Source: Candidatus Hydrogenedentota bacterium (GTDB lineage Bacteria; Hydrogenedentota; Hydrogenedentia; Hydrogenedentales; JAEUWI01). From it: a DNA stretch of 64,000 bases. Positions 14,643 through 64,000 of the stretch are shown here, in pieces. Position 1 is the stretch's first letter, and each line of letters begins with the position of its first letter. The notes beneath the pieces are model-generated. The model did not search any database, was not told the DNA's origin, and saw only the letters and a list, made by a program, of their open reading frames with translations. Made by a program: the position numbers and the translations under genes. The DNA is taken from NCBI GenBank assembly GCA_019637335.1, contig JAHBVV010000017.1:62001-126000 (forward strand). Direction: 5' to 3'.

Positions 14643-16040
14643 ATGAAGTTTGCGCAACGATGGCTGGCTTGCGCGCTGGCCGCCGGGGCCCTGCTGGTTC
14701 CGGCCGGCGCGCGAAGCCCCATCCTTCGCGAGATAGAAGACAGCTTTGTTCGCCTCCACGAGGAAGTGCGGCCTTCGGTGGTGTCTATCGAAACGGAGGG
14801 CAGCCTCAGCAGCGAGGCGCGGGAAAGCCTGCGCGAACTGCACCACTTTTTCGGCGTCCCGCTTCCCGAGGGCGGGCTGCCGCGTGAGAATCCGCGCTCC
14901 ACGGGCAGCGGGCTCATTTACGACACGGAGGGGCACATTGTCACGAATAACCACGTAATCGCCGACGCGCAGCGCATCGAAGTGCTCTTGTGGACGGGGC
15001 GCCGGTACGACGCCACCGTGGTGGGCGCGGATCCGGACACGGATCTGGCGGTGATCCGCATTGAAACCTCCGAAACGCTGACGCCCGCGCGGCTTGGGGA
15101 TTCAAGCACATTGAAAGTCGGCCAGTTCGCCATCGCGCTGGGGAGCCCGCGCGGCTTCGATGGGTCGCTGTCGTTCGGGCACATCAGCGCGCTCGGCCGA
15201 AACAACCTCTGGGGCTTGCAGGAACAGGGCATCCGCTTCCAGAACCTGATCCAGACCGACGCCGCGATCAATCTGGGCAACAGCGGCGGGCCGCTCTGCA
15301 ACATCGACGGCGATGTCATCGGCATCAACATTGCAATCATCTGGGGCGCGAACTCCATCGGGTTTGCGATTCCGGTCAATGAAGTAAAGAACATTGTTCC
15401 CGATCTGATTTCGGACGGCAAGGTCCGGCGCGGTTTTCTGGGCGTGCGCATCGACGATGTCGGGAGCGATATCGCGCCCGTGTTGGGCCTGCCCGACGAA
15501 CAGGGCGCGGTGGTGGAGGAAGTGCAGCCGGACACGCCCGCCGCGCGTGACGGCATCCGGGTTTACGATGTGATCCGTAAGGTCAACGGCGAAATCGTGC
15601 AGGATACGAGCAGCCTGATCCGGAAGATTTCGTCCATGACCCCCGGGGACACCGTCATGATCGAGGTTTGGCGGGACGACGAGACGGTGGAGATTCAGAC
15701 GACCCTCGATGAGTGGCGCAACGCGGCCGAGACCCCGATGCGCGAGGCGCCGGTGCTCGGGATGCGTCTTCAGGCCGTCGATCCGGAACTCCGCGCGAAG
15801 CTCGGATTGGCGGAGTCCGACGGCGGCTTATTCGTGAGCGAAGTGATGCCCGGCAGCCCCGCCGACAATGCCGGAATCAGCGCGGGGGACCGTATAACCG
15901 AATTGGATCGGGAGCCGGTTACGAGTGTTGAGGCATTCCGGAAGCTGGTGAAGGAACGCACTGGAACGAACAGTTCGCTGCTGGTTCGATTTGCACGGGG
16001 AAGCGCGAGCCAGGACATCACCGTTATCCGGGTTCCGTGA
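14643..16040 (+). CDS. HtrA/DegP-type periplasmic serine protease with two PDZ domains
   Basis: 465 residues. ATG 14643 is preferred over ATG 14637 because AGGAG at 14629-14633 then has a 9-base spacer. A signal peptide (to about residue 22) is followed by a trypsin-like domain with the full triad H104 (TNNHVI), D134 (PDTDLA) and S214 (GNSGGP), then PDZ domains at about 265-345 and 375-460. It should degrade or hold misfolded envelope proteins. The gene lies 13 bp after glnD and is probably the last gene of the Bat-glnD transcript. A second HtrA-type gene at 53260 differs in the triad. Confidence 0.93.
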   Translation: MKFAQRWLACALAAGALLVPAGARSPILREIEDSFVRLHEEVRPSVVSIETEGSLSSEARESLRELHHFFGVPLPEGGLPRENPRSTGSGLIYDTEGHIVTNNHVIADAQRIEVLLWTGRRYDATVVGADPDTDLAVIRIETSETLTPARLGDSSTLKVGQFAIALGSPRGFDGSLSFGHISALGRNNLWGLQEQGIRFQNLIQTDAAINLGNSGGPLCNIDGDVIGINIAIIWGANSIGFAIPVNEVKNIVPDLISDGKVRRGFLGVRIDDVGSDIAPVLGLPDEQGAVVEEVQPDTPAARDGIRVYDVIRKVNGEIVQDTSSLIRKISSMTPGDTVMIEVWRDDETVEIQTTLDEWRNAAETPMREAPVLGMRLQAVDPELRAKLGLAESDGGLFVSEVMPGSPADNAGISAGDRITELDREPVTSVEAFRKLVKERTGTNSSLLVRFARGSASQDITVIRVP

Positions 16041-16173
16041 CCGGAAGCAGGTTTGGGCGGTTCAGGAAGGATTGGGAGAATTGGGATTGAACAACGAGGG
16101 GTTGAGCCTGGAGCGCGCGTGGGGCGATCGGCGCGCGAAGTCTGGAGATCCGCGCCGGAGCGACACCGAGCGG

Positions 16174-17421
16174 ATGCGGGAGGCGCGGATCCTGGTTGCC
16201 GACGACCAGGAAGGCGTGGTCACGCTTATCGAGCGGGTGATTGCCAACGCATTCCAGTGCCGGGTCCGCACGGCGAGCTCGGGGACGGAGGCCCTGGCGC
16301 TGCTGGCGCGGGAGCGATACGACGTGTTTCTTACCGACATGAAGATGCCGGGGGTGCACGGATTCGAACTCATCGAGAAGGCGCTGGAAAGCGATCCGGA
16401 TCTGAATGTGCTCGTGATGACGGGCTACGCCGATGACTTTCCCTATGTGGAGGTCATTCACAAGGGCGCGCGCGATTTCCTGAACAAGCCGTTTCTTCCG
16501 GCGGAGCTCGAGGCGAAGCTGATCCGCGTGTTGCGAGAGATGTACCTGCGGCACGACCTGCTGGTGGCGCACCGAAAGTACCGGAGCCTCTTTGACCTGA
16601 GTATGGACGGGACGCTGCTCATCCGGATGGAGGGCGGGCGGATCGAGGATGCAAACGACGCCATTTGCTCGGTGCTCAGCCTGAGCGCGGAGGATCTTCT
16701 GGGCGGCAATTTCGGCGAACTTGTCGCCGGCCACGATCGCGAGCGCTTTGAACAGTGGATGTTGCTCTGCGCGCGGTCGGGCAAGGGGACCATCGGGGAT
16801 CTTCAAGTCCAGCATCCCTCCGGTAAGAAACTCCACTTTGATGTGACGGTGACGATGGTCACCGCGGACAGCGAGCAGTTCGCGTTCCTGGCGTTTCGAG
16901 ACATTACCGAAAAGCGCGAGACGGATCGTGAACTTGAGGAGGCCGCGCAAAAAGACGCGCTCACGGGCCTCTACAACAAGAGAACGTTCACCAACCGGCT
17001 TGAGTGGGCGGTGACGAGCGCAACCGAGAAAAACTCGCCGCTGGCGCTGCTCACGATTGATCTGGACAATTTCAAGCGATGCAACGATACCCACGGGCAC
17101 CAGGCCGGGGATATGCTCCTGAAGAACGTGGGTGAAGTCATTAAGCGGAGCATACGGATCAAGGCGTATGATGAAGGTTTTCGCTGCGGCGGGGACGAGT
17201 TCTCGGTGCTGCTGCACAACTTCTCGCCGGGCGGGCCGGCCGCCGTCGCGGCGCGCATGCACCTGGCCTTCTCGGAGCTGGAATGCTACGGCACGACCAT
17301 GAGTATTGGCATAGCCGAGTTCAGGCCGGGGATGGCCGCCAGCGATTTCGTGGAAGCCGCGGACAAGGCCCTGTACAGCGCGAAGGCCCAGGGCAAGAAC
17401 GCCACTTGCCACGCGCCCTGA
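16174..17421 (+). CDS. Response regulator with PAS and GGDEF (diguanylate cyclase) domains
   Basis: 415 residues. Receiver (1-120) with D10/D11, phospho-acceptor D55 (FLTDMKMPG) and K103; PAS domain (about 135-250) with LFDLSMDGTLL; GGDEF domain (262-413) with DALTGLYNKRTF and an exact GGDEF signature near residue 340, so c-di-GMP synthesis is expected. The usual RxxD inhibitory site five residues before GGDEF reads KAYD, so product inhibition may be weak or absent. ATG 16174 sits at the receiver edge without a strong Shine-Dalgarno. An in-frame TTG at 16081 would add 31 residues and has AGGAAGG upstream. The gene is 133 bp after htrA and converges on the hydrolase pair. Confidence 0.9.
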   Translation: MREARILVADDQEGVVTLIERVIANAFQCRVRTASSGTEALALLARERYDVFLTDMKMPGVHGFELIEKALESDPDLNVLVMTGYADDFPYVEVIHKGARDFLNKPFLPAELEAKLIRVLREMYLRHDLLVAHRKYRSLFDLSMDGTLLIRMEGGRIEDANDAICSVLSLSAEDLLGGNFGELVAGHDRERFEQWMLLCARSGKGTIGDLQVQHPSGKKLHFDVTVTMVTADSEQFAFLAFRDITEKRETDRELEEAAQKDALTGLYNKRTFTNRLEWAVTSATEKNSPLALLTIDLDNFKRCNDTHGHQAGDMLLKNVGEVIKRSIRIKAYDEGFRCGGDEFSVLLHNFSPGGPAAVAARMHLAFSELECYGTTMSIGIAEFRPGMAASDFVEAADKALYSAKAQGKNATCHAP

Positions 17422-61300: not shown

Positions 61301-62868
61301 GGCTCGCCCGCCTCCAGCCCGAGAAGGGATACCTTGCCTCGGCTCGGCCCGTAGATTCCATTCGCGACCGTGAGGCCCGAGGCCGACACAGCGCCCAGTT
61401 TGAGGTCGTGCGGCAATGGACACGACCCGATGTGGACCTCGTCCTGGAAAATGATCAGGTTCGCATTGGCCAGGCGAAACAGAAGCTCGGTGGACTCTTT
61501 CCACGTGAACGGCGCCGCCACTTGGGCCGGCGCGGTGAGCTTGTGCACCACACCGTACTCCGACACAGCGGCCTCGGGCACGATGGCCTGCACCTCGGGA
61601 ATCCACGGCGTCCCGCCCTTGTTCATCGTGGCGATATACAGCGCGTCCCGGTAGTTGGTCAGATTGACAATTCGCTGGCCCCACGCGTTATAGGCCGGGG
61701 GTTTGTCCTTCATGGCGCGCGCGTAGGGCTCCTGGTCCTCGATGCTCAATGCCGGCTGGCTGAACACCCGCGCCACGAAGTCCCAACGATCCGCCAAATG
61801 GTCAAAGCGCCACAACTCGCCCCAGGGCCACACGCCGGCGTAAAGGTAGCCGCCGTAGATCGCCAGGGTCTGCGCCTCCCGCGCATTGCCCGACACACCC
61901 TCGGGCACGGGAATGGGCGGGTCAAAGAGCGCCAGCCCGCTCTTGTCGTACTGATAGAGCGAGCCGGTGGGGTACTGGCCGATGAGCACCTTGTCGTAGT
62001 GGCGCAGCATGCTGTAGCCCTGCCAGCTCTTGCCGTCCGTCACGCGGTGCGTTGTCAATTCGCCGTCGCGGTAGCTGTAGAACTCGCCGACGTTCGTGGT
62101 GATAAGGATTTCGCCGTCGTAGTCCCCCAGTGTGAACACGCTTCCCACGATGGGGAACGACCGGGCCTCCGCGAGGTCGATCGTCTCGCCCGGCTTCCAA
62201 CGCGCGACATGGAGCATGTCCGGCTTTGAGTGGCAGATGACCATCTGGCCGTGGGTGTAGTAGTAGCGCCCCGCGCCCGCGGCGGACGTGTAGATGGCGT
62301 CTCCGTTGTAGGTGATGCGTTCGTTCTCGAAGATCAGTCGCCCGTCGTTCACAAACTGCACGCCGCCGTAGGTGTCCGCGCCCGCCGCCCACGCGGCTTC
62401 GACGGGTTTCCAGCCCCCGCCGCCATCCGGCGTGAGGTAGGGGGCGCGCCGGCCATAGTTCCCCACCGCCACCAGCGTGTCGCCATCCACCTGAAGCCGC
62501 GCGGCGTTGTTGTCCGCGCCGAAGGGCTTGCCCATCGACACAATCGCGGCCTCCGGCGCGGGCGACCGGTAGTAGAAAATGACTTGCCGGTTGTTGTCCC
62601 GCATGTACGTGGAATGCGCGTCGTCGAAGCCCGCGCCCAGCACCACGTCACCGTCGTTGTTTTTCAACTCAAAGAGGCTGCCCAGCCCCTGCCCGCCGTC
62701 GGCGCCGGGATCGAAACGCAGGCGAATATCGACATAAGGGCCGCCGGTATAGAAGAAGTCGGCGCCCGCGGGCGCGTCCTGGGCCGGGACAGCGCTTTGC
62801 GTCAGGAGGCCCGAAAGCGTAAGGGCGCCTAAAACCATCCAACAGGCATAGTGTGATCGTCTATTCAT
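61297..62868 (-). CDS. Exported beta-propeller-like protein of unknown function, partner of GHL10 gene
   Basis: 523 residues. ATG 62868 has GAGG six bases upstream, and a longer frame above it enters the repeat-free leader. Signal peptide near 29 (SAVPAQ-DAPAG). The body has many aromatic beta-strands, such as NNRQVIFYYRSPAPEAAIV, GYSMLRHYDKVLIGQYPTGSLYQYD and YGGYLYAGVWPWGELWRFDH, which recall a propeller or kelch-like lectin fold; no catalytic motif is seen. It overlaps the glycosidase-like gene by 4 bp (ATGA), so the two are produced together and may bind and process the same surface glycan. Confidence 0.7.
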   Translation of the reverse strand: MNRRSHYACWMVLGALTLSGLLTQSAVPAQDAPAGADFFYTGGPYVDIRLRFDPGADGGQGLGSLFELKNNDGDVVLGAGFDDAHSTYMRDNNRQVIFYYRSPAPEAAIVSMGKPFGADNNAARLQVDGDTLVAVGNYGRRAPYLTPDGGGGWKPVEAAWAAGADTYGGVQFVNDGRLIFENERITYNGDAIYTSAAGAGRYYYTHGQMVICHSKPDMLHVARWKPGETIDLAEARSFPIVGSVFTLGDYDGEILITTNVGEFYSYRDGELTTHRVTDGKSWQGYSMLRHYDKVLIGQYPTGSLYQYDKSGLALFDPPIPVPEGVSGNAREAQTLAIYGGYLYAGVWPWGELWRFDHLADRWDFVARVFSQPALSIEDQEPYARAMKDKPPAYNAWGQRIVNLTNYRDALYIATMNKGGTPWIPEVQAIVPEAAVSEYGVVHKLTAPAQVAAPFTWKESTELLFRLANANLIIFQDEVHIGSCPLPHDLKLGAVSASGLTVANGIYGPSRGKVSLLGLEAGEP

Positions 62869-63182
62869 TGTAATCCTCGCAGCGTGTTCTTCGGCGGGAA
62901 GCCAAGTCCTGAAGCGTTGCGCGAGCCGGTCCCCACGGACCCGGGCGCGGGCCGCGGGTTGACGATGGCCCGCACGCCGCATTGTACACCAACGCGCCGC
63001 TGGAACATCCCCGCCGAGAGATCTTTGGAATCAGGTAATACTTTAGCCGTCTGAAGTAAGGCGTTCGCCGATACGAGATGCCTTACTTGCACTGGATGTA
63101 TTCGTCATTCCCGCGAAGGGGGCTGTCGATTCAGCGTGTGCGGTGAGCGAATTTCCTACAGTTTTGTGCTAACGCCCTACAG

Positions 63183-63269
63183 CGTCATTCCCGCGAAGGC
63201 GGGAATCCAGAGAAATTCGGAGGTTTGTGCGTTCGCGTCGCTGGATCCCCGCGTTCGCGAGGATGACGG
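63183..63269. repeat. REPIN-like pair of dRS3-type repeats, copy 1
   Basis: Left: CGTCATTCCCGCGAAGGCGG with ATTCCC-N8-GGGAAT at 63187-63206 (the dRS3 pattern). Right: CTGGATCCCCGCGTTCGCGA, then GGATGACGG (63241-63269), in inverted orientation. The two arms flank about 30 bp. A fragment of the same left arm is at 63106-63120. Confidence 0.75.
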
Positions 63270-63310
63270 ATCTGCTCATTCCTTCTATAGCGTAGGGTGA
63301 GTCAAGTAAA

Positions 63311-63396
63311 CCGACAGCCCCGAAGGCGGGAATCCAGAGGGTTTGCGAGGTTAACGTTGCATGATCTCTGGATCCCCACTTTCGTGGGGATGACGG
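63311..63396. repeat. REPIN-like pair of dRS3-type repeats, copy 2
   Basis: Left: CCGAAGGCGGGAATCCAGAG (damaged first part). Right: CTCTGGATCCCCACTTTCGT, then GGGGATGACGG (63366-63396). Same design and same orientation as copy 1, 120 bp apart. Confidence 0.7.
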
Positions 63397-63568
63397 TTTT
63401 CGATCACCGAAAGCCGCCACGGTTGGGTGCGACGGGGGTGACTACTTCTGACGGCTAAAGAATTGCGGAATCAGAAGATGAGGGTTGTCCTCGGTCGACA
63501 CTCACCGGATTTGTCGAGGGGAGCTGTGATGCACTATAGTCATCTTCCAAAGGGATGGGCCCCTTCTA

Positions 63569-64000
63569 TTGTTCGAGTCACTTTACAATATAGTCCTTCT
63601 GGTGGCGCTTTGCGCGGCCGCGGGTATCGCCCTGCGGCGATGGGAAGGTTCGGGATACGCCGGCGCGCGCGCGGGCGCGATCTTCGGTCTCATCGCCGCC
63701 GCCGCCCTGCTTGCGCCCTATGGTGATCTGGCCGGTTTGGACGGGCGCTCCGTTCCCCTCGCCCTTTGCGCGCTCCACTTCGGTTTTCGTGCGGCGGGGG
63801 TGGCTGTGCTGGTGGCGTGCGCCGCCGCCTGGCTCGATGGGGCTGCCGGCCTGGCGTCGATTTTCCTGCCCGCGGCCATCGGCTTGGCGGGACGCCGCTT
63901 CGGGTGGACGCCGGATGCGGCCCTCGACCCGGCGCACACCGGGGCGATGGGGCTGGCGGCGCACCTGCCGTTGTTTGGCCTGGCCGTGATTACCGGGCAA
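63569..64000 (+). CDS. LytS/YhcK-type five-helix membrane receptor, 3' end cut by window
   Basis: The frame opens after TGA at 63527-63529 and is still open at the last base. No ATG is in frame. TTG 63569 is the best start, because it gives FESLYNIVLLVALCAAAGIA, a typical first helix of the 5TM-5TMR_LYT domain. Helices follow at about 27-45, 58-76 (DGRSVPLALCALHFGFRAAG, the LYT hallmark), 78-94, 96-110 and after 125. These domains usually lead into PAS, histidine kinase or GGDEF output domains that lie beyond the window. The Shine-Dalgarno is weak (AGGGA, spacer 13). Signal: cell-wall or c-di-GMP-linked sensing is likely. Confidence 0.7.
   Translation, partial: MFESLYNIVLLVALCAAAGIALRRWEGSGYAGARAGAIFGLIAAAALLAPYGDLAGLDGRSVPLALCALHFGFRAAGVAVLVACAAAWLDGAAGLASIFLPAAIGLAGRRFGWTPDAALDPAHTGAMGLAAHLPLFGLAVITGQ

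Follow-up and report, generated by a model that had tools for sequence, protein, structure and literature searches.

The 432-bp element at positions 63035-63466 of the window (the whole 64,000-nucleotide stretch of DNA analysed here) very probably consists of two unrelated non-autonomous DDE elements nested in one another, namely, an IS66-type MITE and an IS1182-type MITE that subsequently entered the loop of one of its REPs. We base this reading on the ends and duplications of both elements, their copies elsewhere, the exact loop position of the inner element, its empty paralogous sites, and the autonomous partners present in the same genome (G000), all of which can be read directly from the sequence. 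The features of the locus are as follows, with strand given where one is assigned.

63027..63034, no strand: left target-site duplication of the outer element, 8-bp GGAATCAG, read from the sequence
63035..63466, no strand: outer element, a 432-bp IS66-type MITE made up of 225 bp, a 203-bp insertion and a 4-bp duplication
63035..63058, plus strand: left terminal inverted repeat of the outer element, GTAATACTTTAGCCGTCTGAAGTA; ends shared with the IS66 at C4:200366-201890
63103..63118, plus strand: left part of the first CGTC-type REP of the outer element (CGTCATTCCCGC and loop GAAG), split by the inner element
63115..63118, no strand: left copy of the 4-bp target duplication of the inner element, GAAG, which is the REP tetraloop
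63119..63321, plus strand: inner element, a 203-bp IS1182-type MITE with ends GGGGCTGTCG[A/G]TT; ends shared with the IS1182-family IS at C1:314579-316439
63183..63210, plus strand: intact CGTC-type REP of the inner element (CGTCATTCCCGCGAAGGCGGGAATCCAG)
63241..63268, minus strand: second, inverted REP of the pair in the inner element (CTGGATCCCCGCGTTCGCGAGGATGACG)
63322..63325, no strand: right copy of the 4-bp target duplication of the inner element, GAAG
63322..63337, plus strand: right part of the interrupted REP of the outer element (loop GAAG and GCGGGAATCCAG)
63368..63395, minus strand: second, intact REP of the outer element (CTGGATCCCCACTTTCGTGGGGATGACG), the REP hit by the inner MITE in other copies
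63443..63466, minus strand: right terminal inverted repeat of the outer element, GCAATTCTTTAGCCGTCAGAAGTA
63467..63474, no strand: right target-site duplication of the outer element, 8-bp GGAATCAG, read from the sequence

The outer element is bounded by a perfect (8/8) duplication of GGAATCAG, and its 24-bp ends, GTAATACTTTAGCCGTCTGAAGTA and GCAATTCTTTAGCCGTCAGAAGTA, match each other in inverted orientation at 21 of 24 positions. Both features had been described in the original prediction, as had the absence of a transposase, and all three hold: no transposase ORF was found inside the element (63035-63466). The ends belong to a type also written GTAAYWCTTTAGCCGTCTGAAGTA, and those in the window match GYAAYWCTTTAGCCGTCWGAAG. 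With up to three mismatches allowed, the end motif occurs at just two sites in the window, which are the two ends of the element, against 0.04 expected by chance. An Rfam search of 62400-64000 returned no match, and viral contigs searched with the outer end gave no exact match; among plasmid records, the sole matching part was the REP pair, in Azospirillum. The gene upstream of the outer element has a 75%-identical homologue in the nearest relative (G001), where the neighbouring kinase gene is not adjacent. With the gene order differing in this relative, the outer-element site is not alignable to it, and the search gave no orthologous empty site for the outer element.

The interior of the element differs in part from what had been predicted, which was two REPIN-like pairs of the pattern ATTCCC-N8-GGGAAT and the inverted words GGGGCTGTCG and CGACAGCCCC. 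One such pair is intact (63187-63206), whereas the other is the outer REP split by the 203-bp insertion, and GGGGCTGTCG...CGACAGCCCC are instead the terminal inverted repeats of the inner 203-bp MITE. This MITE is flanked by CGTCATTCCCGC-GAAG on the left and GAAG-GCGGGAATCCAG on the right; when the flanks are joined minus one GAAG, they form a perfect CGTC-type REP, with its tag, 8-bp stem, 4-nt loop and CCA tail. The length sum is exact (225 + 203 + 4 = 432). Moreover, the joined 225 bp can be compared with uninterrupted copies in the same genome, most of which are 91-94% identical to it, mostly in gapless alignments. The best match, at C1:390013, is 98.7% identical, and the outer part of the window copy groups with this uninterrupted copy in a tree (support 100/99). 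The uninterrupted paralogous 225-bp copies represent empty sites for the inner element. The earlier idea that one mobile unit had collected another was correct as regards the nesting, but the collected unit is an IS1182-type MITE, not a REPIN pair.

Among the other 432-bp copies, the inner MITE either lies reversed in the same REP or occupies the second REP of the outer MITE; it is found in both REPs and, within the first, in both orientations. The variation in REP and orientation implies at least three insertion events. The opposite course, in which the 432-bp unit would be ancestral and the 225-bp form a deletion product, for example of recombination between the GAAG copies or REP halves, would accommodate the several 432-bp copies that keep intact outer duplications. 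However, it is extremely unlikely, being at odds with the three insertion configurations, with the exact loop duplications that mark an insertion, with the closeness of the window copy to an uninterrupted one, and with the occurrence of the 203-bp piece alone at many other REPs and in G002, another species of the same genus. Alternatively, the nested 432-bp composite might move as a whole under the IS66 transposase, with an old inner insertion copied along. In line with this, the copies on C17 and at C2:231864 agree in REP, orientation and length, are 91.4% identical over 432 bp, and each have their own 8-bp duplication. In contrast, the outer part of the window copy, so close to an uninterrupted copy (98.7%), is 90.2% identical to the C2 composite, and the interrupted or uninterrupted label needs four changes on the tree, in which few branches are strongly supported. 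We regard movement of the whole composite as improbable.

For an IS66-type MITE that later received an insertion, the family to which it belongs provides the wider context. The original prediction had described the element as MITE-like and considered that copies might exist elsewhere. With up to two mismatches allowed, the outer end motif has 166 sites genome-wide, while the reversed-pattern control gives 0; second copies of the ends are thus abundant. In the genome stretches examined, 31 of the 38 nearest convergent end pairs have 8-bp flanks duplicated at 7-8/8 bases, whereas random re-pairing of the flanks of these 38 pairs yields a baseline of 2.5%. Among convergent pairs, lengths of 225 bp (12 pairs) and 432 bp (7 pairs) are the most frequent, and further subfamilies with outer-type ends measure about 304-331 bp or more.

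An IS with the same ends, which the original prediction had proposed to seek, is present in the same genome as a complete IS66 at C4:200366-201890, with ends GTAACACTTTAGCCGTCTGAAGCA and GTAACACTTTAGCGGACTGAAGTG. Its transposase, flanked by the outer-type ends, is encoded in a single reading frame of 490 aa (C4:200410-201882) and matches the profiles NF033517 (279.7 bits, cut-off 180) and PF03050. The flanks of this copy lack a matching 8-bp duplication; perfect 8-bp duplications are found at two relatives of the transposase (L157 and L164). Related IS66 transposases in Planctomycetota and other phyla are bounded by ends of the form GTAAC..TTTAGCC or GTAACTATTCAGCC. Based on its single reading frame and 1.5-kb length, the complete IS66 fits the ISBst12 group of the IS66 family, whose members have one transposase gene, ends beginning GTAAC or GTGAC followed by ..TCAGC or TTTAGC, and an 8-bp duplication (PMC12898284). 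ISDge4 of this group, with ends GTGACTACTCAGCA and GTAACTGCTCAGCA and an 8-bp duplication, has been observed in live transposition (PMC12898284). In contrast to such elements, the outer element is a 225/432-bp derivative that lacks a transposase and carries a REP dimer; no name for its family was found in the papers searched. The similarity of the outer and inner MITEs to the complete IS66 and IS1182, respectively, is confined to the ends, about 15-24 bp. Because the ends match the complete IS66 of the same genome, we classify the outer element as an IS66-type MITE, which the IS66 transposase would mobilise in trans.

Longer IS66-ended elements of 0.6-1.2 kb with 7-8/8 duplications lie at C1:274914-276020, C1:913519-914733, C18:64952-65726 and C2:400632-401233, and these may be cargo-carrying derivatives. 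The first of these end pairs was considered as an autonomous copy and rejected; it spans 1.1 kb between its terminal repeats and shows a 7/8 duplication, with no recognisable transposase. At another locus (L052 local 15733-16306; C17:137733-138296), a 331-bp and a 225-bp IS66-type MITE adjoin in the order GATTTTTG-331-GATTTTTG-225-GATTTTTG, with the middle 8-mer common to both, and comparable sharing of 8-mers is seen at C1:580692-580947 and C1:426306-427922. The shared 8-mers suggest either insertion into a pre-existing duplication or a product of recombination. In G062, which belongs to another family of the same order, IS66-type left ends GTAACATTTTAGCCGTCTGAAGCA lie near contig ends (L213, L214 and L215), and the seven matches to GTAACATTTTAGCCGTCTGAAGCA genome-wide fit the expectation for a multi-copy IS of this type. 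Contigs of the present genome also break inside outer or inner elements (C8:94 and 213838, C12:175908, C25:104912, C28:96840 and C1:32). Since contigs end in these repeats, the element copy counts are lower bounds.

The inner MITE likewise has a complete partner, an IS1182-family IS of 1861 bp at C1:314579-316439 with ends GGGGCTGTCGATTTA and GGGGCTGTCGGTTTA; the sequence GGGGCTGTCG[A/G]TTTA is common to this IS and the MITE consensus. Its 605-aa transposase (C1:314594-316408) matches NF033551 at 363.8 bits (cut-off 270) and is the sole copy in the genome. The complete IS itself occupies a REP loop, with the duplication GAAA, and the target-site type is equal for the two elements, a CGTC REP loop with a 4-bp duplication. 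Its flanks suggest that the REP in which it lies belongs to an inner MITE. Taken together with the shared ends, the inner MITE was presumably mobilised by this IS1182 transposase.

Across the genome, an identical 4-bp duplication is present at 19 of 33 convergent inner-end pairs, and stem complementarity around it reaches at least 7/8 in 16 of these 19. The remaining 14 pairs have no identical 4-bp duplication; some are ends of different array copies paired with each other, and in some the duplication was probably lost through decay or inversion. The MITE is exactly 203 bp in 29 of its 31 own copies. A related MITE in G002, with ends GGGCCTGTCGATTTA and a consensus 76% identical in an ungapped comparison, is located in REP loops and measures 203 bp in 8/8 copies. 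The length of 203 bp is constant in both genomes despite the 24% consensus difference (ungapped comparison), and the single-stranded DNA fold of the window copy is more stable than that of shuffled sequences (z -4.3). These observations suggest that the length or structure of the inner MITE is under constraint.

Collectively, these data allow a two-step model for the locus. In the first step, the 225-bp MITE with its REP dimer would have been inserted by the IS66-family transposase acting in trans, with duplication of the 8 bp GGAATCAG. In the second step, the loop of the first REP would have received the 203-bp MITE through the action of the IS1182-family transposase, with duplication of GAAG. 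The IS1182 transposase would most likely read the extruded hairpin (cruciform) and join the element ends at both edges of the loop, because the flanking 8-bp stem and the place of the loop stay the same among targets that differ in their loop letters (GAAG, GAAA, GCAG, GTTC, CTTC or GGAA). Almost without exception, the targets are CGTC-type REPs that resemble one another in sequence, and the enzyme could in principle recognise the letters of the REP stem, not its structure. We consider this alternative less likely: the loop letters vary even though the loop is the part that is duplicated, and a distant IS1182-family IS in G035 (L248 local 1304-2897; ends GGGGCTGTTGAAAAAG) sits in the palindrome CATGGGC-GTCTC-GCCCATG, unrelated in sequence to the REP, where the 5-nt loop GTCTC is duplicated. 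Furthermore, the inverted repeats used as targets by IS1272, another member of the family, have no sequence homology (PMC5678879). In two other relatives with similar IS1182 ends, G056 and G053, one end was seen in each, not in a CGTC REP.

Recognition of a hairpin would agree with what has been reported for the IS1182 family. IS1272, whose transposase belongs to the same family as the partner of the inner element, targets inverted repeats or stem-loops irrespective of sequence and replaces them (PMC5678879). In IS1272, the stem-loop is replaced and no duplication arises, whereas the stem halves are kept on both sides of the inner MITE and the loop is duplicated. An attack at the loop edges, which would duplicate the loop, was listed by the IS1272 authors as a theoretical pathway c (PMC5678879), and as far as their sequences can tell, the inner-MITE copies match its prediction, with the stem kept and the loop doubled. 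Several REP-targeting ISs, including IS1397, ISPsy8 and ISRm22, also insert at a fixed point of the REP; for ISPsy8, this point is the axis about which a predicted hairpin is symmetrical, and a short duplication results (PMC1525189). However, these are complete ISs, with ISPsy8 belonging to the IS3 family, whereas the inner element is an IS1182-type MITE that is directed at CGTC-type REPs and itself carries the REPs that it targets.

The REPs of both elements are of a published kind. The REP at 63183-63210 reads CGTC-ATTCCCGC-GAAG-GCGGGAAT-CCAG, the form by which CGTC-1 REPs are defined (PMC3733652), and it shares with these and with dRS3 the CGTC tag, 8-bp stem, 4-nt loop, CCA tail and head-to-head dimers (PMC3733652). 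As published, CGTC REPs apparently have no dedicated transposase and mostly no repeated flanks, and movement by other transposases was left open (PMC3733652). In contrast, almost all of those sampled here are cargo or targets of the two DDE-type MITE families: among the 95 exact REPs, which are all sites on contigs C1-C17 in the genome-wide REP list, an IS66-type or IS1182-type end was found close to 89, which lie inside or next to such ends, and 6 have neither. The units that move could instead be the REP pairs, through a RAYT tyrosine transposase, the MITE terminal repeats being incidental. Sharp-edged REP pairs that stand free occur in related genomes such as G047 and would fit this explanation, as would the 12 Y1-type transposase genes in this genome. 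It is nevertheless very unlikely given the 89/95 association; moreover, no CGTC REP lies within about 1.5 kb of any of the 10 Y1 transposase loci examined, and no RAYT adjoins CGTC REPs in published work (PMC3733652). The simplest reading is that REP pairs here spread mainly as passengers of the two DDE-type MITE families.

The individual parts of this system are of known kinds, and what appears to be new is the target mode and the combination. The loop-duplicating target choice, the assembly and the carriage of REPs (89/95) by DDE-type MITEs appear to be undescribed in the papers searched. The mode of spread of CGTC-type REPs, including dRS3 of Neisseria, is an open question in the paper that defined them (PMC3733652), and in this genome, nearly all sampled CGTC REPs are carried in, or lie next to, two DDE-type mini-transposons. 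The inner-MITE copies also provide natural examples of the loop-duplicating outcome, which had been sketched as a possible course of IS1182-family transposition, in a system where the target is conserved, copies with and without the insertion exist, and one complete transposase is present.

We tentatively propose a broader model, in which the IS1182-type transposase would sense the shape of the hairpin and insert at the loop edges, the MITE would have captured its own target hairpin, and CGTC REP dimers would spread as DDE-MITE cargo. If this is true, the supply of targets would be self-renewing, as every insertion would destroy one landing site and bring two. Either family may still be active at present. 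The two REPs that the inner MITE supplies for each one it uses up also explain copies within copies, such as those at C5:218979 and C11:84043, each of which sits in the second REP of a different copy of the inner MITE.

Head-to-tail arrays of the left 138 bp of the inner MITE, from its end to the loop of the second REP, were also observed, followed by one full copy. They lie at C3:294278-294787, C4:88898-89537, C11:83754-84315 and C35:12493-13062 and often have a single right end. In these arrays with a spacing of 138 bp, tandem duplication probably adds to self-insertion.
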